From: Pedobacter aquae
Lineage (GTDB): Bacteria > Bacteroidota > Bacteroidia > Sphingobacteriales > Sphingobacteriaceae
Direction of reading: 5' to 3'
Length of the DNA: 64,000 nt
Assembly: GCF_008195825.1 (NCBI RefSeq)
Contig: NZ_CP043329.1
Span: 1,364,001 to 1,428,000, forward strand
The translations under genes were made by a program, and so were the position numbers. A model generated the notes under the pieces. The model was not told where the DNA came from. It did no database searches and saw nothing but the letters and a program-made list of their open reading frames with translations. Positions 3,027 to 13,175 of the stretch are shown in pieces. Within the stretch, counting starts at the first letter, position 1. Every line of letters starts with the position of its first letter.

Positions 3027-3207
3027 CTTAAAATGAGATCAGATTTACTCAAATTTATTGAATATTTTTAATAATACAACCCAACTTCATTAAAAGCTTT
3101 ATTACAAAGGGCAGATTTTAAATTTATTAATTAACCTTTTAAAAACTATTCATCGTTAAGCTTAATCTACTTAACTTGTTCGTTTATCCTCAAAATCGAT
3201 TTTTTTC

Positions 3208-4005
3208 TTAGGCTTTAGATAAGTTTAAGATTCTAAAAGCACCTCTGGCTACAATAATAAAAACTATGGCGCCAATAATTAAATCTGGATAAGGAGATTG
3301 TGTAAAATAAACCATCAGCGCAGCTAGGATAACACCTATATTAACCACTACATCGTTTGAAGTAAAAATCATACTGGCTTGCATATGTGCTTCTTTACTC
3401 CTACTTTTTTGTAAAACATATAAACAAGCTGCATTACCCAATAATGCCAACAAAGAAATTAATATCATGGTATGAACATGAGGTAGGTTTTCTAAACCAT
3501 AAAAACGTTTAATAACTTCTACAAAGCCCCATATAGCTAATAGTAATTGTAAATAACCACTTGTTTTGGCTATGTTTTTCTTGAAGATGATAGATTTACC
3601 AATAGCAAAAAGAGCTAAGCTATAAACTAAACTATCTGCTAACATATCTAAGCTATCGGCCAATAAGCCCATAGAATCTGCTATTAAACCCGCAATAATT
3701 TCTATCAGAAATAATGCAAAATTTATCAGAAGTACTATCCAAAGCAGTTTTTTATCTACTTCTTGCGCTAAAGGTAAAACAAGCTCTTCTGCAACTGTAG
3801 TTTCTATAAGTGATGTATTAAAATGAAGGCTATCTAGTTGCTGATGAATATCTATGGCATCATCTTCATGATAAACGACCAATTTCCTGTTTGGGATATC
3901 AAAATTTAAAGATTTGATAGTAGGAAAACCTTCTAATTTCATTCTGATGATTTGCTCCTCAGAAGGGCAATCCATTTTTTCTATATAGAAGCTTGATTTA
4001 TTCAT
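3208..4005 (-). CDS. Cation diffusion facilitator-like transporter with N-terminal HMA-like domain
   Basis: This is a membrane cation transporter of 265 aa. Residues 1-70 form a small ferredoxin-like domain with the motif MDCPSEEQ, resembling heavy-metal-associated domains. Residues from about 85 onward form six membrane helices of a CDF exporter (IADSMGLLADSLDMLADSL). The first metal site reads D-xxx-D where zinc exporters usually have H-xxx-D, and helix 5 reads SNDVVVNIG, so the metal may not be zinc. The usual C-terminal cytoplasmic CDF domain is absent. The start is set at ATG 4005 because the longer frame to 4059 would run through the terminator of the cold-shock gene. The substrate is unknown. 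Confidence 0.85.
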   Translation of the reverse strand: MNKSSFYIEKMDCPSEEQIIRMKLEGFPTIKSLNFDIPNRKLVVYHEDDAIDIHQQLDSLHFNTSLIETTVAEELVLPLAQEVDKKLLWIVLLINFALFLIEIIAGLIADSMGLLADSLDMLADSLVYSLALFAIGKSIIFKKNIAKTSGYLQLLLAIWGFVEVIKRFYGLENLPHVHTMILISLLALLGNAACLYVLQKSRSKEAHMQASMIFTSNDVVVNIGVILAALMVYFTQSPYPDLIIGAIVFIIVARGAFRILNLSKA

Positions 4006-4040
4006 CACCAAAAGGGAATTTGTATAAGATTGTCTGAAAA

Positions 4041-4074
4041 ATAAAAAAGTCCTGAACATTGTTCAAGACTTTTA
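4041..4074 (-). terminator. Terminator of the cold-shock gene
   Basis: Arms at 4046-4057 and 4061-4072 (AAAGTC-c-TGAAC / GTTCA-a-GACTTT) enclose a 3-nt loop, and on the minus strand are followed by TTTTTTATT. It ends the csp transcript and argues for the downstream transporter start at 4005. Confidence 0.75.
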
Positions 4075-4095
4075 AAATTTAAGCTTCTATGTTTT

Positions 4096-4290
4096 TTAAA
4101 CTTTTTTTACATTAACAGCTTGAGGACCTTTTTTGCCATCAGCAATCTCAAATTCTACATCATCATTGTCTGAAATAGCATTTACGCCTCCGATAACATC
4201 TTTAAAGTGAACAAAAATGTCTTTTCCATCGCAAATAATGAAGCCAAAACCTTTTTGAGCATTAAACCATTTTACTTTACCCGTTTTCAT
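4096..4290 (-). CDS. Cold-shock protein (CspA family)
   Basis: This 64-residue single cold-shock domain is a cytoplasmic nucleic-acid chaperone that melts RNA structure. Both RNA-binding motifs are present: RNP1 as KGFGFI (residues 13-18) and RNP2 as IFVHF (25-29). The length and the opening [18 protein letters not shown] are typical of the family. The gene stands alone, with its own terminator at 4041-4074 and a 143-base AT-rich upstream gap that could hold a long 5' UTR, as is common for csp genes. I cannot tell whether this copy is cold-inducible. Confidence 0.96.
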
Positions 4291-4433
4291 AATTAATTTA
4301 AGTGTTTTAATAATAATCAGACCTAAATTTCTTACTGAAGGGGGTAAAATAATTTAAGAAAGATTGTAATTCTATTTATTTCTTAATCTCTAAAATATAA
4401 AATTTATTCTAAAAACAACAGATTTTATAAAAA

Positions 4434-5174: not shown

Positions 5175-6536
5175 TTAACCTATGCTAAATAATTGCTTTT
5201 CTGGCTTAGTAGCTTGTAAACGAGCATCAAAAACGGCACAAACATTACGCAGAAAGCGTTTCCCTGTTTTGGTAACTTTTAAAGATTGTGGCTCTTGAAT
5301 AATTAAACCATCTTCTACCAGCTCTGGCAATCCTGATAAATTTTCTCTAAAAGCATCGTTTTGTAAATCTTCATCTGTCCAGGTGGTTACACCTTTACAC
5401 ATGATATTTAAAATATGCCTCCTGATTAATAAATCCTCATCATTTAACACATGTCCTTTTACCACAGGTAATTCTCCGGCATTTATCAAATCCAAATACT
5501 CTTCTTCGCTTTTTACATTTTGCGCAAAAGCATCCCAAGTATCGCTAATAGAAGAAACACCCAAACCAACCAATAAACGGGTGTATTGGTGTGTATAACC
5601 CATAAAATTACGGTGTAACTTTTTACTTTGTGCAGCTACATTTAGGCTATCATAAGCAAAAGCAAAATGATCCATCCCGATATCTAAATAGCCGGCAGCT
5701 AAAAGCATTTCTCTACCTTTTTCGTACAATTCTTGTCTTAAATGGGTATCAGGTAAATCGGCCTCGGTAAACTTACGCTGACCAGATTTTACCCAAGGCA
5801 CATGAGCATAGCTATAAAAGGCTATTCTATCTGGCTTTAAGCCGATAACCTTTTCTACCGTAGCAGTAAGACTATTAACCGTTTGTAATGGTAAGCCATA
5901 AATTAAATCGAAATTTATGGAAGTATAACCTATTGCTCTGGCTTGTTTACTTACTATATCTACCTCTTCTACAGATTGTATTCTGTTAATCATGATTTGC
6001 ACTTGCTCATCAAAATCCTGAATGCCTAGACTTAATCTTTTAAAACCTAAAGCATACAATACTTCAAGGTGAGCTAAAGTGGTATTTGCCGGATGAGCTT
6101 CAAAACTAAATTCTGCATCGTCATGAATTAAACAATCTTCTAAAATACCTTTGATTAAAAGCGCTAAGTTTTCAGGAGAGAAAAATGTTGGTGTACCACC
6201 GCCCAAGTGTATTTCTTTTAACTGCGGTTGAGCACTAAAAACCGCTTTATATAATTTCCATTCTTTTATAACGGCTTGTAAATAGGGCTCTTCTACCCCA
6301 TGGTTTTTAGTAATGCGTTTATTACAAGCACAATAAGTACATAAACTTTCGCAATAAGGTAAATGGATATAAACACTTATACCATCTTTATGATTACTAA
6401 TATCAAAAGATTGCTTCACTTTTTGCAACCATAAAGACTTGTTAAAAGTACTTTCATCCCAAAACGGAACTGTAGGATAACTGGTATACCTTGGTACAGG
6501 TACCGTATATTTAGTAATAATATTTTGGGTAAGCAT
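5175..6536 (-). CDS. hemN: Oxygen-independent coproporphyrinogen III oxidase
   Basis: This radical-SAM enzyme converts coproporphyrinogen III to protoporphyrinogen IX without oxygen, in haem biosynthesis. The cluster motif C-xxx-C-xx-C-x-C is visible as C62, C66, C69 and C71 (YCESLCTYCAC), followed by the GGGTPTF glycine loop. The C-terminal HemN domain is present. I start it at ATG 6536 (MLTQNIITKYTVPVPRY), one base past the stop codon of the D-lactate dehydrogenase gene, so the two are very likely co-transcribed. The longer frame upstream only reads through the ldhA tail. Placement behind an FNR-like box and next to an oxygen-sensing kinase fits induction at low oxygen. Confidence 0.95.
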   Translation of the reverse strand: MLTQNIITKYTVPVPRYTSYPTVPFWDESTFNKSLWLQKVKQSFDISNHKDGISVYIHLPYCESLCTYCACNKRITKNHGVEEPYLQAVIKEWKLYKAVFSAQPQLKEIHLGGGTPTFFSPENLALLIKGILEDCLIHDDAEFSFEAHPANTTLAHLEVLYALGFKRLSLGIQDFDEQVQIMINRIQSVEEVDIVSKQARAIGYTSINFDLIYGLPLQTVNSLTATVEKVIGLKPDRIAFYSYAHVPWVKSGQRKFTEADLPDTHLRQELYEKGREMLLAAGYLDIGMDHFAFAYDSLNVAAQSKKLHRNFMGYTHQYTRLLVGLGVSSISDTWDAFAQNVKSEEEYLDLINAGELPVVKGHVLNDEDLLIRRHILNIMCKGVTTWTDEDLQNDAFRENLSGLPELVEDGLIIQEPQSLKVTKTGKRFLRNVCAVFDARLQATKPEKQLFSIG

Positions 6537-6537
6537 A

Positions 6538-7575
6538 CTATAATTGATGAGGTAGTAATTGTTTTTCTTTGATAGTTTCTTTTTGGCAATTCTTAGCACA
6601 AGCACAAGCCTTACCCACACATTTATTTTCTTGCCAAAGGTCTAAGCTTTTAATGGTAAGCTGTGCTATTTCTTGTAAAGCCTCTGTAGTTAAAAAAGCC
6701 TGGTGTGGTGTTATCATCACATTTGAAAAAGCTAATAACTGCTGCAATAAACAATCTTTTTCTTTGTCTTGATGATGATTTTCAAAAAATAAACCATGCT
6801 CATATTCATAAACATCGGCACCTAAAGCACCAATTTTACCAGATTTTAGGGCTTGTAGAACATCATTAGTATTTAACAACCCTCCTCTTCCGGTATTGAT
6901 GAGCATTACCCCAGGTTTCATTTTAGCAAGATTCTCTGCGTTAATGATGTGTCTGGTTGCATCATTTAAAGGGACATGTAAAGAAATGATATCTGATTTA
7001 GCATAAAGCTCTTCTAAACCAACTTGCTGTATACCTGTATGCTGATATTTTACTTGGTTATAAGCCAAAACTTTACAACCAAAACCATTAAATATTTTTG
7101 CTGTGATAAGACCAATCTCGCCTAAACCTATTATACCAACGGTTTTACCGTACAAAGTAAAACCTACTAAACCATCTAACCTAAAATCGAAGTTTTTACT
7201 TCTTTGTGTTGATAATAAAATTTTACGATTTAAAGCTAAAACAAGCGTTAACACATGTTCTGCTATGCTATGCGGTGAGTAAGAAGGAATATTGGCTATT
7301 TTGATATTGGCTGCCGCAGCGGCTTTTTTATCAATATGATCTGTACCTACAGAGCGTGTGGCAATATATTTAACCCCATAATGAGCCAACTTTTGAATAA
7401 CAGATGCCGAGACATCATCACTTGTAAAAACTACAACAGCATCTTTACCTTCTGCATAAGATGTAGTTTCATCAGTCAGAGGGTTAGATATTAAAGTAAT
7501 ATCATGCTTTTTTTGATTGGCCTTTGCCAGCAATTCCTTCTCAAAAGACCTCGTACTGTAAACTACAACTTTCAT
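6538..7575 (-). CDS. ldhA: Fermentative D-lactate dehydrogenase (2-hydroxyacid dehydrogenase family)
   Basis: This NAD-dependent enzyme reduces pyruvate to D-lactate and regenerates NAD during oxygen limitation. The catalytic domain starts MKVVVYSTRSFEKELL. The Rossmann loop is VGIIGLGEIGL and the C-terminal catalytic part contains NTGRGGL and TPHQAF. The start is ATG 7575; a GTG three codons upstream is less likely. The enzyme core is followed by a short tail with four clustered cysteines (CVGKACACAKNC), which I do not know as a family feature. It is the first gene of a unit with hemN and is preceded by an FNR-like palindrome at 7647-7660, about 78 bases from the start codon. Confidence 0.9.
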   Translation of the reverse strand: MKVVVYSTRSFEKELLAKANQKKHDITLISNPLTDETTSYAEGKDAVVVFTSDDVSASVIQKLAHYGVKYIATRSVGTDHIDKKAAAAANIKIANIPSYSPHSIAEHVLTLVLALNRKILLSTQRSKNFDFRLDGLVGFTLYGKTVGIIGLGEIGLITAKIFNGFGCKVLAYNQVKYQHTGIQQVGLEELYAKSDIISLHVPLNDATRHIINAENLAKMKPGVMLINTGRGGLLNTNDVLQALKSGKIGALGADVYEYEHGLFFENHHQDKEKDCLLQQLLAFSNVMITPHQAFLTTEALQEIAQLTIKSLDLWQENKCVGKACACAKNCQKETIKEKQLLPHQL

Positions 7576-7646
7576 TTGCTTCACTTTATGTAAGCAAAGC
7601 TAGCAGCTATAATCCTATTGTAACATGAGTATAGTCAGCAAGAAAA

Positions 7647-7660
7647 GTGATTAAAATCAA
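7647..7660 (-). promoter_or_regulatory. FNR/CRP-type operator upstream of ldhA-hemN
   Basis: On the minus strand the sequence reads TTGATTTTAATCAC, which matches the FNR consensus TTGAT-N4-ATCAA at nine of ten positions. It overlaps the stop codon of the REC-Crp regulator and lies about 78 bases before the ldhA start. The likely binding protein is the adjacent Crp-domain regulator. This is inference from motif and position. Confidence 0.55.
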
Positions 7661-8706
7661 TTTTTCATGTTTTTTAATCGGTTCACATCTAAGATGTGTA
7701 TCTCGCCTCCTTTTTTCTCAATCAGTTTCTCTTCTTTAAAATCACTTAGTGTACGACTAACTGTTTCTGTTGCCATACCAGCCATTGCGGCTAAATCATC
7801 TCTAGAAATTTTAAAAATATCTTGGTTTTTATTCACCTCTCTAATACGCATTAAAGTTTCTGCCAAACGCTTTCTTACTGAGTGATAAGCTAATTGAACC
7901 AACTGTTCTTCTTTCTGATGGATATGGGCAGAAAGCAGCTGAATAAATTGCATAGCAACCGCTGTATTGTTGTTTAGCAGGGCATTTACTTGGTCTTTAT
8001 GTAACATACAAATACTGCTATTCTCCATAGCCTCTGCCGTTTCTGTATGCAATTGACTTATCAAAGCATCATGTACACCAAAATATTCATCAGTATGGTA
8101 AATTCCTGTTAAAAGTTCTCTACCATCTTCACTTAATTTAACCGTTTTAATTTTACCCTCTAAAACCAAATAAATACCTTGTGCATGGTCTTGGTCGTAA
8201 TAAATAATCTGACCTTTTTTAACCTGTCTTATTTTCTTTTGCGAGATTAAAGATTTTAAATCTTGCTTATCTTCTACCTGTGAGGCAAAATCTTCTAGAT
8301 TTTTTAATCCCTTAGTGTAAAACTCTTCTTGTTTTTGCTTTTTATTAAGCCTGCTTTCTATAGCATTTAAAAGCTCCATATCGTCAAAAGGCTTAATCAG
8401 GTAATCATCTGCACCCATCTCCATACCTTTGCGCATATCTGCTCTTTCTGCCTTTGCGGTTAAGAAAATAAAAGGAATATTAGCCGTTTCCGGATTTTTA
8501 TTCAGCAAATACAAAACACCATAACCATCAAGTTCTGGCATCATAATATCGCAAATAATTAAATCTGGAAGGTATTTCTGAGCCTTATCAGCCCCAAGTT
8601 TGCCATTAACTGCAGTTTCTACTTCGTAACCAGCCAAACCTAATATTTCAGCCGTTCCTTCTCTAATATCCTCGTTATCTTCTATAATCAGGATTTTCTT
8701 TTTCAT
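7657..8706 (-). CDS. Response regulator with C-terminal Crp/Fnr domains (REC-CNB-HTH fusion)
   Basis: This is a 349-aa transcription factor. Residues 1-125 form a receiver domain with phospho-acceptor D53 (DIMMPELDG). Residues about 155-265 form a cyclic-nucleotide-binding fold (KKGQIIYYDQDHAQGIYLVL). Residues about 275-345 form a Crp-type winged helix (MAGMATETVSRTLSDFKEEK). It therefore couples a phosphorelay to a Crp/Fnr-type DNA reader. It lies one base after the haem-PAS kinase gene, so the two should be partners. Targets are probably the FNR-like boxes before ldhA-hemN and in the 11235-11384 gap. No N-terminal Fnr cysteines are seen, so oxygen would be sensed by the kinase rather than by the regulator. 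Confidence 0.92.
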   Translation of the reverse strand: MKKKILIIEDNEDIREGTAEILGLAGYEVETAVNGKLGADKAQKYLPDLIICDIMMPELDGYGVLYLLNKNPETANIPFIFLTAKAERADMRKGMEMGADDYLIKPFDDMELLNAIESRLNKKQKQEEFYTKGLKNLEDFASQVEDKQDLKSLISQKKIRQVKKGQIIYYDQDHAQGIYLVLEGKIKTVKLSEDGRELLTGIYHTDEYFGVHDALISQLHTETAEAMENSSICMLHKDQVNALLNNNTAVAMQFIQLLSAHIHQKEEQLVQLAYHSVRKRLAETLMRIREVNKNQDIFKISRDDLAAMAGMATETVSRTLSDFKEEKLIEKKGGEIHILDVNRLKNMKN

Positions 8707-8707
8707 A

Positions 8708-9891
8708 CTAAAGATTAAAAATCAGGGTAAATTTAGCGCCTTTATTTTCAGAACTCTCAAACTCCACCTCGCCATTCATGAGTTTAATATAACGATTAAC
8801 AATATTTAATCCTAAGCCAGTACCAGGTATACTCCCTGTATTATTAGCTCTAAAGAAAGGTTCAAATAAATGCTTTTGATCATTCACAGGGATACCAATA
8901 CCATCATCCTTAATGATAACCATACAGCGTTTTTCATCAAGCTCGGTATTAAACTCTATAAAAGTGTTTTCACCAGAGTATTTAATGGCATTAGCAATCA
9001 GGTTGATGATACAATTTTTCAATAATGCAGCATCTAAAGTAACCAAACTACTTTTTCCGGTATGTTGATAAATGATGTTTTGATTTTGCTTGGCTATCAA
9101 TTGCATTTCTTCGGTAATTTCTTCTGCAAGCTTTACCAAATCAAATGGTGCTGCCTGCGGATTAATTTTACCAGCTTCTAGCCTTTCTAGGGATAAGAAA
9201 TCATTAAGAATGTTGGTGAGGTTGCCCACACCAACTTTTATTTTACCTACGTGTTTACTAATGTTAGGATTTTGATACTCTTGAGCATATTTTTCTATCA
9301 ATGATGCCGAGAGCTGTATAGAACTTAAAGGCGTTCTAAACTCATGCGATGCCATAGAAACAAAACGACTTTTCAATTGGTTAAGTTCCTTCTCTTTTTC
9401 TAGAGATAAGCTTACTTCTTCTTTAGCATCTTGCAATTGCGAAACAATAGATTGTAAAGCTTCTGTACGCTCTTCAACTAAATGCTCAAGCCTGAATGTA
9501 TATTTTTTAATTGCTCTTCGGCATCCTTTTCTCTACTTAAATCATGTATAAAGCCGGTATAAACTATCCTGCCTTCATACTGCACCTTACTTACCGCAAG
9601 TCTAAATGGAAATTGGCTTTTATCTTTTCTTAAACCTGTAACTTCTCTTCCAATACCAATAATGTGTGCTTCGCCCGTTTGGTTGTAACGATGAATATAA
9701 CCATCATGCTGAGACCTGTAAGGCTCTGGCATTAACATCGATATATTCTTCCCTACTACTTCACTTACCTGATAACCAAACAGTTCACACGCCGATGGAT
9801 TTATAGATTCAATTAATCCTTTTATATCTATAGTGATGATACCATCAATGGCATTATTAATAATTGCTTCAAGTAAAGCCTCTTTATCCAT
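8708..9891 (-). CDS. FixL-like haem-PAS oxygen-sensing histidine kinase (frame broken once)
   Basis: The N-terminal PAS domain carries the four residues that define the FixL haem pocket, at exact spacing. H62, R68, H76 and R82 correspond to H200, R206, H214 and R220 of Bradyrhizobium FixL (stretches HDGYIHRY and HIIGIGR). After a coiled-coil linker come the HisKA box (SHEFRTPLSS) and the ATPase motifs DDGIGIP and GTGLGL. In this sequence the PAS part stops at 9478 and the kinase part has its own frame from 9436. One extra base in the T6 run 9503-9508 joins them as EEQLKKYTFRLEHLVEERT, giving 394 aa. The full protein should be a soluble oxygen sensor that phosphorylates the REC-Crp regulator one base downstream. 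Confidence 0.88.
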
Positions 9892-9939: not shown

Positions 9940-11213
9940 TTATTTATATCGCTCATCAAATGCTTTTTCTAAAGCTTCTCTATGGTCTGGATGCGCTATC
10001 TCAATTAAAGCTCTTCCTCTTTGTTTCAGGCTTTTTCCGTACAAGTTTACAATTCCATATTCGGTTACTACCCATTGTACGTGTCCTCTGGTAGTTACTA
10101 CACCTGCACCTTCTTTTAAGAAAGGAACAATTCTGGAAATACCTTTATTAGTGGTTGATGGTAGGGCTATAATAGGCTTACCACCTTGTGATAAAGATGC
10201 TCCTCTGATAAAATCCATTTGGCCACCAATACCAGAGAATTGATATGTTCCGATAGAATCTGCACAAACCTGACCTGTTAAATCTAATTCTATAGCACTG
10301 TTGATAGCAATTACTTTAGGGTTTTGACGGATTATACTCGTATCATTCACGTAATTAATATTCATTACCCTTACGGATGTATTATCATCAACAAAATCAT
10401 ATAATTTTCTGGTACCCACCATAAAAGAAGTCACGTTTTGCCTCTGTTAAGCTTCTTCATGCTATTATCAATCACACCGCTTTCTATTAAGGGGATGACA
10501 CCATCAGACAACATTTCTGTATGCAAACCTAAGTTTTTATGGTTCACTAAATTTTTTAAAACTTGATCTGGAATACTTCCAATTCCTAATTGTAAGGTAG
10601 AACCATCCTCTATTAAAGACGCCACATTTTTACCAATTTGTACCACCACATCGCTAGCTTTGGCAGAATAATCTACCTCAGGAAGCTCTGCCTTTTGCCA
10701 AACCAAAGCATTTATTTTATTGACATGGATAAATCCGTCTCCGTGTGTTCTTGGCATAAAAGGATTAACCTGAGCGATGACATATTTTGCATTTTCTATA
10801 GCCGCCCTAGCAATATCTACCGATGTACCTAAAGAACAATAACCATGTTTATCTGGTACTGATACATGAATTATAGCTACATCAATAGGTAAATAGTTTT
10901 CGTTAAAAAGAATAGGAATCTCACTTAAAAATACAGGCACATAATCTCCAAATTGGCTATTTGCTACCGATCTAGAATTTGCCGATACAAATAGAGAATT
11001 AAAGAAGAAACTCTCTCTATATTTCTCATCATTAAAATTTACATCTCCTAAAGTTGTAATACTTACCAACTCCACATTTTTCAATTCCTCGTATCTATGT
11101 TGTAAGGCTTTTATAATATGTACTGGTGTTGCAGCACTTCCATGTAAAAATACCCTATCACCTGATTTTATTGCTTTTACGGCCTCTGCGGCGCTTATAT
11201 AATTAACATCCAT
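9940..11213 (-). CDS. Acetyl-CoA hydrolase/transferase family protein (frame broken once)
   Basis: This enzyme moves or hydrolyses CoA on short acyl groups (acetate, succinate or 4-hydroxybutyrate), as in fermentative acid production. Both halves of the CoA-transferase fold are visible. The N half contains GDRVFLHGSAATPVH and QLGIGSIPD. The C half contains INSAIELDLTGQVCADS and SGIGGQMDFIRGA. The frame breaks at T4, 10436-10439; adding one base gives NRGKNVTSFMVGTRKLYDF and a 424-aa protein of normal family length. ATG 11213 is chosen as start over a TTG at 11234. It sits next to the oxygen-sensing kinase and diverges from the 596-aa gene. The substrate cannot be told from sequence. Confidence 0.88.
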
Positions 11214-11262
11214 CTCGTTTGTTTTTATGCTCAAAATAGCTGCATTTTAAGACTTTAAAAAA

Positions 11263-11274
11263 TGACAATCGTCA
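11263..11274. promoter_or_regulatory. CRP/FNR-like palindrome between divergent genes
   Basis: TGACAATCGTCA is a TGAC-N4-GTCA palindrome with the half-site spacing of Crp/Fnr family operators. It lies 50 bases before the CoA-transferase start and 110 bases before the 596-aa gene. It could serve the nearby REC-Crp regulator. Binding is inferred. Confidence 0.45.
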
Positions 11275-11384
11275 TCAAAAAAGGTTTCTCTTATCTCTAA
11301 AAATTATCAAAAAATAAAGCTTTAGTGACTTAAATCATATTCTAAAACAATTATTAATCGGTATTTCGTAAAAAAATTAATTTA

Positions 11385-13175
11385 ATGAGTCATACATTTC
11401 ATATTCCTGTTTTAGGTTTAGCATATTCTGTTGATACGCCGCTAAAAGTGGGCCGTTATGGTATCTCTTCTGTAGCATCTATTGTTGATGATAATTTAAT
11501 AGAAAGAATGCGAGAATACCACGCAACGCAAAACCAGGAAAATTATACTCCAATTCAAGATAACAAAGCAAACTTTAGAGCGAAAAGAATAACTGCCTAT
11601 TTAAATTTGATGCAAGACTTGCTTGATAAACAATTTGAAGCTTTAAAAGAACAAGCCTTTGAACCTGGTACAGATTTAACAAGATATTTTGATTTACAAC
11701 CAGACCACTCTGCCCTTAAAAAAGCTTATTTACAAATGCTTAATATTCAAGATGATGAATTAAAAGCGATTGTCCAAAAGCAATTAAAAGATAAAATGCA
11801 AAAAGGAGCCATAGATGTAAATATTATGGCTAAAGTAGATAAACTAAATAGCCCCATCAATGGCGAAGAGCAATTAAGCGATGCGCTAGCTTCTTTACAA
11901 GGTTTTGCAGAAAGTAAATTAAATGCTGGCGTAGTTTTATCTGCCGGGATGAACCCTAGATTATACGCCCACCTAGAAAACTTTAAAGATTTTTATCCTG
12001 ATGAAAATCATAAACTTCAAAAGACTATTATTTTAAAAGTTTCTGATTTTAGATCGGCCTTGATACAAGCTAAATTCTTAGCAAAAAAAGGTTTATGGGT
12101 TTCAGAATTTAGGATAGAATCTGGCTTAAATTGTGGCGGACATGCCTTTGCTACTGATGGTTATTTACTGGGTCCTATTCTAGAAGAGTTTAAAGTAAAA
12201 AGACAAGAAATGCTTGCCGAACTTTTTGGGATGTACAAAAATGCTTTGACACAAAAAGGTTATACTGGTAATTTAGAAACACCTTTAATGAAGATAAGTG
12301 TACAAGGTGGTATAGGTACAGCAGAGGAAGACAACTTTTTATTGCAACATTATCAATTAGATGCAACGGGTTGGGGCAGTCCGTTTTTATTGGTTCCAGA
12401 AGCTACCAATGTTGATGAAGAAACGCTTAATAATTTAGCTGAAGCAACCAGAGAAGATTTTTACATCAGCGGCTCATCGCCTTTAGGTGTACCCTTTAAT
12501 AATTTCAGAAAAACTACAGCAGAAAAACTTCGTTTAGAGCGTATTGCGAAAGGAAAACCAGGCAGTCCCTGTACCAAAAAATATTTAGTTTCTAATACCG
12601 AGTTTACCAAAGAACCTATTTGTACGGCATCCAGAAAATATCAAAACTTAAAAATAAAATCGCTTCAAAACAGTGATTTAGGCGAGCAAGAGTTACAAAC
12701 CAAAATAAACGAAGTAACAGAGAAGATTTGTCTTTGCGAAGGTTTAGTAACATCTGCTTATTTAAAGAATGATATGATAAAACCAAAAGAAAATAAAGCG
12801 GTTACCATTTGCCCCGGACCTAACATTGCTTATTTTTCTGGTAAGTTTTCTTTAGATGAGATGGTAAAACACATTTACGGCAAAATCAACTTATTGGCAG
12901 GTGCAGAACGTTCTAATATTTTTATTAACGAGCTTAATTTATATATCGAGCATCTTAAAAAAGATATCAGCATGAGTTGGCAAGATTTATCTGATAAAAA
13001 AATTAAATACTATACCAAGTTTAGAGAGCAGTTAGAACAGGGCATCAATTACTATAAACAGCTTATTCCAGAGATTCAAAACCAAACGGATGTATATAAA
13101 AACAAGATGCTTAAAGAGCTACAAGAAGCAGAGGAAAGACTTAAAATGATGATTTTCTCTACAGAAAATGCATAA
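11385..13175 (+). CDS. Conserved protein of unknown function, possible FMN-type TIM barrel with Cys-rich C-terminus
   Basis: I do not recognise a characterised function for this 596-aa soluble protein. Parts recall nitronate-monooxygenase/FabK-type flavin barrels: an opening IPVLGLAYSVDTPLKVGRYG, a central GLNCGGHAFATDG (C250, H253) and a phosphate-loop-like GGIGTAEE (309-316). The C-terminal half holds further cysteines at 396, 413, 449, 451 and 476 (EKICLCEG, VTICPGP), which could bind a metal or Fe-S cluster. No signal peptide or membrane helix is seen. It is divergent from the CoA-transferase and shares the intergenic palindrome 11263-11274, so it probably belongs to the low-oxygen regulon. 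The flavin and metal assignments are inference. Confidence 0.85.
   Translation: MSHTFHIPVLGLAYSVDTPLKVGRYGISSVASIVDDNLIERMREYHATQNQENYTPIQDNKANFRAKRITAYLNLMQDLLDKQFEALKEQAFEPGTDLTRYFDLQPDHSALKKAYLQMLNIQDDELKAIVQKQLKDKMQKGAIDVNIMAKVDKLNSPINGEEQLSDALASLQGFAESKLNAGVVLSAGMNPRLYAHLENFKDFYPDENHKLQKTIILKVSDFRSALIQAKFLAKKGLWVSEFRIESGLNCGGHAFATDGYLLGPILEEFKVKRQEMLAELFGMYKNALTQKGYTGNLETPLMKISVQGGIGTAEEDNFLLQHYQLDATGWGSPFLLVPEATNVDEETLNNLAEATREDFYISGSSPLGVPFNNFRKTTAEKLRLERIAKGKPGSPCTKKYLVSNTEFTKEPICTASRKYQNLKIKSLQNSDLGEQELQTKINEVTEKICLCEGLVTSAYLKNDMIKPKENKAVTICPGPNIAYFSGKFSLDEMVKHIYGKINLLAGAERSNIFINELNLYIEHLKKDISMSWQDLSDKKIKYYTKFREQLEQGINYYKQLIPEIQNQTDVYKNKMLKELQEAEERLKMMIFSTENA

Follow-up and report, generated by a model that had tools for sequence, protein, structure and literature searches.

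The locus analyzed here raises the question of whether a bacterium of the phylum Bacteroidota senses oxygen with a haem kinase of the FixL type and passes the signal to a regulator able to act on low-oxygen genes directly. The locus belongs to Pedobacter aquae and was analyzed within a 64,000-nucleotide stretch of its genome, referred to below as the window. The genes are located on the minus strand in the order CoA-transferase, PAS, HisKA/HATPase_c, receiver-Crp regulator, dehydrogenase and hemN. The CoA-transferase / acetyl-CoA hydrolase gene (9940–11234), upstream of the kinase, consists of two ORFs (10431–11234 and 9940–10434) and contains the second of two frame breaks. The PAS ORF (9478–9891, 137 aa) encodes the N-terminal part of a sensor kinase, with its final few residues lying beyond the first frame break, and domain matches assigned 8708–9475, in a different frame of the assembly, to the remaining half of this kinase (HisKA and HATPase_c). 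The response regulator (7657–8706) was found through domain matches to contain a receiver domain (Asp53), cNMP_binding and HTH_Crp_2 with the recognition helix ATETVSRTLSDF. Downstream of it are genes for a D-2-hydroxyacid (D-lactate-type) dehydrogenase (6538–7584; family matches) and for HemN, an oxygen-independent coproporphyrinogen III oxidase (5175–6620; TIGR00538, 423 bits against a cut-off of 325), whose listed GTG start implies an overlap with the preceding gene. A divergent ORF of 596 aa on the plus strand (11385–13175) is uncharacterised and had no Pfam or NCBIfam match. The sequence-only reading had assigned the kinase to 8708–9891, one base ahead of a receiver-Crp fusion, and both statements were borne out: this region comprises the PAS and HisKA/HATPase ORFs on the minus strand, and base 8707 alone lies between the stop codon of the kinase and the start of the regulator (ATG at 8706). 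Promoter, terminator and TAnnTTTG scans gave results no better than chance.

The kinase frame break was located within 9487–9529 (minus strand), where comparison with three close relatives shows a net deficit of one base in an A-run of the window. In these relatives, namely two Pedobacter glucosidilyticus genomes and P. puniceum, the kinase is an intact ORF of 394 aa, the length that had been proposed for the restored protein. PAS, HisKA and HATPase_c also stand in one protein in a relative (L004) and in two frames in the window. Judging by this comparison, the two halves represent a single gene split by a one-base deficit near 9500. The CoA-transferase gene is split as well, at window positions 10434–10440 (near 10437), and a sequencing error is a likelier cause of the frame breaks than a real lesion. 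An odd tail was also observed at the end of a receiver ORF near G000:C1:3191742 (L201). Single-base losses, such as the CoA-transferase break and this tail, may be common in the assembly.

The PAS domain was compared with proteins of known structure. A phmmer search of PDB chains gave BjFixL as the top match (E 6e-31, ungapped), followed by DosP (E 4e-19); the motif 'HIIGIGR' is common to the window PAS and BjFixL, and 'HDGY' of the former corresponds to 'HDSY' of the latter. An AlphaFold2 model of the domain, built from 41 sequences and without haem, had a mean pLDDT of 92.3. Using this model, Foldseek ranked FixL chains first (E 1.5e-15) and DosP as the second family (6e-11). In VIA-align, the 13 top entries were all FixL with various ligands, the best being BjFixL (Z 19.4, rmsd 1.5, 114 residues), and DosP (Z 15.7) was tied with the PAS domain of PpsR. 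Since PpsR, LOV and other PAS domains rank level with or slightly under DosP, the fold by itself is no proof of haem. Model residues 16–129 map to FixL 154–267 with a constant offset of 138, and therefore H62, R68, H76 and R82 correspond exactly to H200, R206, H214 and R220. The FixL spacing of these four residues, noticed previously in the sequence, was thus confirmed by both the ungapped sequence alignment and the structural alignment. The rhizobial FixL model NF041777 gave 131.5 bits for the PAS half alone, against a whole-protein cut-off of 850 for a protein that is split here by the frame break. The genome contains one such PAS, and the sole further match was weak (E 3.6e-4).

Like FixL of Bradyrhizobium and Sinorhizobium, the kinase combines the PAS fold and the equivalents of H200 and R220 with HisKA and HATPase_c behind the PAS; it differs in that the identity of the PAS domains is 41–47% (structural alignment) and the partner is not a FixJ-type regulator. 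DosP of E. coli, which ranks second among the solved families in both the sequence search and Foldseek, is likewise a haem PAS protein, but its PAS is joined to a c-di-GMP phosphodiesterase and not to a kinase. The H-box His is residue 44 of the HisKA/HATPase_c half, and the N, G1 and G2 boxes are present. The Kyte–Doolittle mean is at most 1.51 in every 19-residue segment of the kinase, so no transmembrane helix is indicated, in agreement with the earlier description of a soluble protein. The regulator shares with FixJ a receiver domain paired with a kinase; however, the output of FixJ is an HTH of the LuxR/GerE type, whereas here it is cNMP_binding and HTH_Crp_2. The HTH_Crp domain has an E-x-x-S-R helix, which is the signature of the FNR/FixK recognition helix, and the FNR and FixK models match the protein, both below their cut-offs. 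Unlike FixK and FNR, the regulator carries a receiver. Iron–sulfur FNR has four cysteines for its [4Fe-4S] cluster. The regulator has two cysteine residues in 349, which makes a four-cysteine cluster of the FNR type impossible, and it would therefore rely on the kinase for the oxygen signal.

Of 395 Bacteroidota genomes, 56 contain a receiver-Crp protein (E 1e-45 or better), and all 56 belong to the class of the window, which we take to be Bacteroidia. In 53 of the 60 fetched places (the window's own left out), a co-oriented kinase adjoins the receiver-Crp gene. Taking E below 1e-30 against the window PAS as the criterion, 18 of these 53 kinases have a PAS of the FixL type and 35 one of another type. 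The seven places without a co-oriented neighbour kinase (L136, L140, L145, L147, L149, L150 and L152) were dropped from the sets of pair loci and kept in the calculation of palindrome density, which uses all 60. A further 80 loci were taken from genome contigs and the 27 with a pair were used, L021 having a regulator truncated by the contig end. The total of 81 pair loci thus comprises 46 of the FixL type, including the window, and 35 others. The pair can be split, as in L147 (G064) and L149 (G158), where about 14–18 kb of one contig was observed between the receiver-Crp gene and the FixL-type kinase.

To interpret the pocket residues, the pair kinases were compared with 20 other Bacteroidota PAS domains, which are earlier matches of the window PAS (E about 6e-24 to 7e-17) and so form a control biased towards likeness. 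Of the 81 loci, two failed the gap rule, two of the other type had no PAS alignment and the window served as the query, which leaves 44 FixL-type orthologues and 32 other partners. In the control, H62 occurs in 20/20 domains, R68 in 13/20, H76 in 5/20, I77 in 3/20, and R82 and Y65 in 1/20 each. Among the orthologues, H62, Y65, I77, R82 and L98 are each kept in 43/44, and R68 and H76 in only 21/44 each. All four of H62, R68, H76 and R82 occur together in 14 of the 76 kinases counted, all 14 of the FixL type. It is R82, Y65 and I77 that mark the FixL type. Because ordinary PAS domains all have H62, the proximal His alone says little, and the claim of a haem pocket for oxygen rests on R82, Y65 and I77 together with the overall likeness, and not on the His. 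The argument that four conserved residues prove haem was rejected, as H62, R68 and H76 occur in control domains too. The overall similarity of the PAS to FixL is nevertheless far beyond chance, although of the four residues named, three have no diagnostic value. The sequence-only reading of a haem-based oxygen switch and not a generic PAS is retained as regards the FixL type, on sequence, fold and tree, and its four-residue argument was overstated.

The one exception among the 44 is a locus placed among Flavobacterium rows in the regulator tree (L119; G335, kinase 3152–4372 on the minus strand), in which Tyr replaces H62 and Lys replaces R82 and the pair is intact. Its sequence suggests a natural change of sensor, in which the haem-pocket His and Arg were lost and the pair was kept. 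The partner kinases of the other type resemble the FixL-type ones in having the pair, a related regulator, the palindrome described below and cbb3 neighbours; they differ in that their PAS is outside the FixL group, with I77 in 1/32 and Y65 in 5/32. In the same pairwise alignments, R82 was found in 20/32 and H62 in 31/32. The latter count depends on the alignment, being 26/35 in a multiple alignment (five gaps, four F); the FixL-type rows had H62 in 17/18 there, which agrees with the pairwise result. The F-helix His is mostly kept, and R82 often, in the non-FixL PAS partners (L126–L168).

Phylogenetic analysis of the PAS domains placed the 31 FixL-type rows from pairs in one group with a support of 98 (starred). 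This group is nested in a 50-row set that includes the Bj and Sm FixL, with a support of 92 (not starred) obtained from few columns; neither the 20 control PAS domains nor the 31 from other partners fall within this set. The regulator tree unites 37 FixL-type rows in a group with a support of 99 (starred), and those of Saprospiraceae and a few others stand apart. The tree requires five changes of PAS type, two of which are forced by starred branches. The AU test did not reject a single clade of FixL-type rows (p 0.44, or 0.14 after removal of four long rows); exchange of PAS domains between kinases was considered, and a single clade is compatible with the regulator tree. A FixL-type sensor is thus well supported by sequence, fold, the PAS tree and the conservation of H62, Y65, I77 and R82. 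A second set of Bacteroidota kinases with FixL-type PAS (L099, L103, L104, L105 and L109) was also observed, in which HisKA_3 replaces HisKA and some members carry several PAS domains; a receiver-Crp partner was not seen in the short flanks of these five loci.

At least one of FixI, CcoG, FixH, CcoP and CcoNO was found in the flanks (about 6–9 kb, less at contig ends) of 30 of the 81 pair loci, namely 18/46 of the FixL type and 12/35 of the other, and with HemN added these numbers rise to 25/46 and 14/35. CcoG and CcoNO passed the NCBIfam cut-offs and FixH the Pfam cut-off, and CcoP was below its model cut-off; the label FixI is our own assignment for a P-type ATPase with PF12156 in a cbb3 setting. 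In a set of 53 pair-free loci that have a FixL-type PAS, mostly from other phyla, the reference proteins were found in 0–3 loci each and Usp in 4, a rough control since tblastn is less sensitive across phyla. According to a study of Bradyrhizobium (PMC6515984), FixLJ induces fixK2, FixK2 controls fixNOQP (cbb3), and HemN and FixG/FixI are treated among the microoxia proteins.

In order to find a candidate operator, all 4-mer palindromes with spacers of 4–8 were counted in the intergenic DNA of the pair loci and compared with Markov shuffles. TGAT-N4-ATCA was first in both sets, with 71 occurrences against 3.6 expected (FixL-type) and 47 against 2.2 (other), and the runners-up were ATGA-N6-TCAT and TGAC-N4-GTCA. 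These three palindromes lead to the consensus ATGAY-N4-RTCAT, which has 76 sites in the 81 loci, 70 of them in the intergenic DNA that makes up 18.6% of the total. The reversed pattern gave 6 sites, none intergenic, and the forms with G and C as the first base gave 12 and 17 sites (10 and 12 intergenic). Of the 68 sites that have a start codon no more than 300 bp away, 24 have one at 50–62 bp, compared with 167 of 2359 random intergenic points (7.1%); the p value of 2e-11, like the other p value for the palindrome below, is too small because sites were counted over related genomes. Such a spacing fits an activator site near -41. In 40/81 loci no exact site lies within 300 bp of a start, and in 12/81 the palindrome stands ahead of the kinase gene. 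The operator differs from TTGAY-N4-RTCAA of FNR and FixK, which has 12 sites in the 81 loci with 4 intergenic (76 and 70 for ATGAY-N4-RTCAT). This E. coli-type FNR/FixK box was tried in the window and discarded, with 0 matches, as was the looser TTGA-N6-TCAA (2 matches, 2.1 expected).

The lone exact match in the window, ATGACAATCGTCAT (11262–11275), is centred 55.5 bp upstream of the first ATG in the CoA-transferase ORF and is kept in the three close relatives. One match against 0.22 expected is no surprise alone, as at least one occurred in 19 of 100 shuffles, and the weight of the site comes from the comparison between genomes. A second palindrome with one mismatch, GTGACTTAAATCAT (11325–11338), is centred about 53 bp upstream of the start (ATG) of the 596-aa ORF, as calculated from coordinates; it is weak alone, since the window has 13 matches with at most one mismatch against 7.35 expected. 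Relatives of the 596-aa ORF were observed in 8 of the 46 FixL-type pair loci (window included) and 0 of the 35 others, and in 6 of those 8 a palindrome lies within 300 bp upstream. No exact palindrome was found directly before the kinase gene of the window. The whole genome contains 22 exact sites against 13 of the reversed pattern, a small excess, with 16 sites inside ORFs and 6 intergenic. Three of the six lie 40–64 bp before the ATG of the CoA-transferase, a FixI-like ATPase (63.5 bp; the ORF is followed by ccoN, about 2.8 kb from this site) and a nitrite-reductase-like (NirB-type) ORF. The remaining three are 212–264 bp before ORFs for a class II (B12-dependent) ribonucleotide reductase and for proteins of 954 and 945 aa, which presumably resemble SusC-type receptors.

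The first base of the operator was compared with the recognition helix, six rows being left out in which the letter was missing or a different one. With the E-x-x-S-R helix, the first base is A in 43 of 50 intergenic sites, G in 7 and C in 0; with Ile in place of Ser, it is A in 26 of 41 and C in 11. A is thus commonest with both helices, and the contrast between Ser and Ile in the use of C has a p value of 7e-5. Shared ancestry could be the source of this link, as related genomes share both features.

Three alternatives were weighed against an oxygen-sensing pair that acts through this palindrome. It is very unlikely that the kinase is a true pseudogene in this P. aquae strain and the system inactive there: the A-run deficit does break the kinase, and the adjoining CoA-transferase gene is broken as well, but we infer that a pair of such breaks about 1 kb apart is more like read errors, and the identity to the three relatives is 97.7–99.4% for the regulator and still 90–96% for the kinase halves. 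Also unlikely is that the domain, despite its FixL fold, is haem-free in vivo or responds to another gas (NO or CO) or to redox state, with the pair still governing low-oxygen genes. The pockets of the other partner kinases differ, notably at I77 and R82, so the circuit can run on another sensor pocket, and the exceptional locus L119 retains the pair with neither the pocket His nor the Arg. According to Xing et al. (PMC10468136), FixL and DosP share PAS cluster 3, in which the His is the primary determinant of haem binding and is invariable in 60% of sequences, with no conserved His in the other 40%. Against a haem-free domain stand the five residues kept in nearly all FixL-type orthologues and the fact that the top structural matches are FixL proteins with various ligands.

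The third alternative, which we regard as rather unlikely, is that the palindromes around the pairs are sites of a different Crp/Fnr regulator with common targets and that the receiver-Crp protein binds elsewhere. Genome-wide, the palindrome has 7.33 sites per Mb in the 56 pair-bearing genomes and 7.09 in 22 genomes without the pair, which were chosen among listed members of the family or class of the window. These equal densities led us to reject the palindrome as a marker of genomes with the pair; it is not exclusive, and other Crp/Fnr proteins may use it. The P. aquae genome itself encodes two further HTH_Crp proteins above the cut-off, one of them about 5 kb from the nitrite-reductase site. 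However, the density rises to 52 sites per Mb in the surroundings of the 60 receiver-Crp genes and to 84 in the 27 named pair loci, and both the sites ahead of kinase genes and the different use of C as the first base with the Ser and Ile helices argue for the receiver-Crp protein itself.

A soluble oxygen sensor kinase of the FixL type feeding an FNR-like response regulator is the best reading of the locus, and we consider it quite likely. The computations on which it is based gave the domain make-up, fold, residue correspondence, orthology, neighbourhood and palindrome enrichment. In FixL, oxygen on the haem holds the kinase off, and oxygen-free haem leaves it active. By analogy, we infer that a haem b in the PAS, with His62 proximal and Arg82 distal, would take up oxygen and in this state keep the kinase off. 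A drop in oxygen would allow the kinase to phosphorylate Asp53 of the adjacent receiver–cNMP–HTH_Crp regulator, and the phosphorylated protein would occupy ATGAY-N4-RTCAT sites located about 55 bp upstream of start codons and directly activate low-oxygen genes. The predicted targets are the CoA-transferase gene at the locus and the cbb3-oxidase cluster elsewhere in the genome, and in relatives they may include cbb3 genes, hemN, universal stress proteins and the kinase-regulator pair. The roles of FixL, FixJ and FixK would in this way be merged in two proteins, as had been suggested; the make-up of the regulator, the cbb3/hemN surroundings and the FNR-like palindrome fit this suggestion, but the frameshift breaks the window copy.

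For the whole class, the chances appear balanced that a two-protein low-oxygen relay of Bacteroidia replaces FixL-FixJ-FixK, with a PAS kinase and a receiver-FNR regulator acting via ATGAY-N4-RTCAT on genes for cbb3 oxidase, haem synthesis and fermentation. In such a relay, the FixL-type haem PAS would serve in Sphingobacteriaceae, Flavobacterium, Saprospiraceae and others and another PAS elsewhere, and the first base of the operator would track the recognition-helix residue. Among the matches listed from open-licence literature, no oxygen sensor of the FixL-kinase/receiver-FNR kind was found for Bacteroidota, and the words Bacteroidota and Bacteroidetes are absent from PMC10468136 and PMC8510549. 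Each module is known, and it is the combination of a FixL-type kinase, a receiver-FNR regulator and an operator of its own that was not seen among those matches.

Thus, from its sequence, the P. aquae locus probably places a haem oxygen-sensing kinase beside a regulator able to switch on low-oxygen genes directly, which would be a shorter form of the FixL-FixJ-FixK relay of nitrogen-fixing rhizobia. That one regulator family is served by both FixL-type and other PAS sensors constitutes a natural experiment in the change of sensor input. If the proposed relay is true, its sensor, regulator and operator are now all predicted, and FixL sensing would be no speciality of rhizobia or proteobacteria, with a large phylum using a shorter form.
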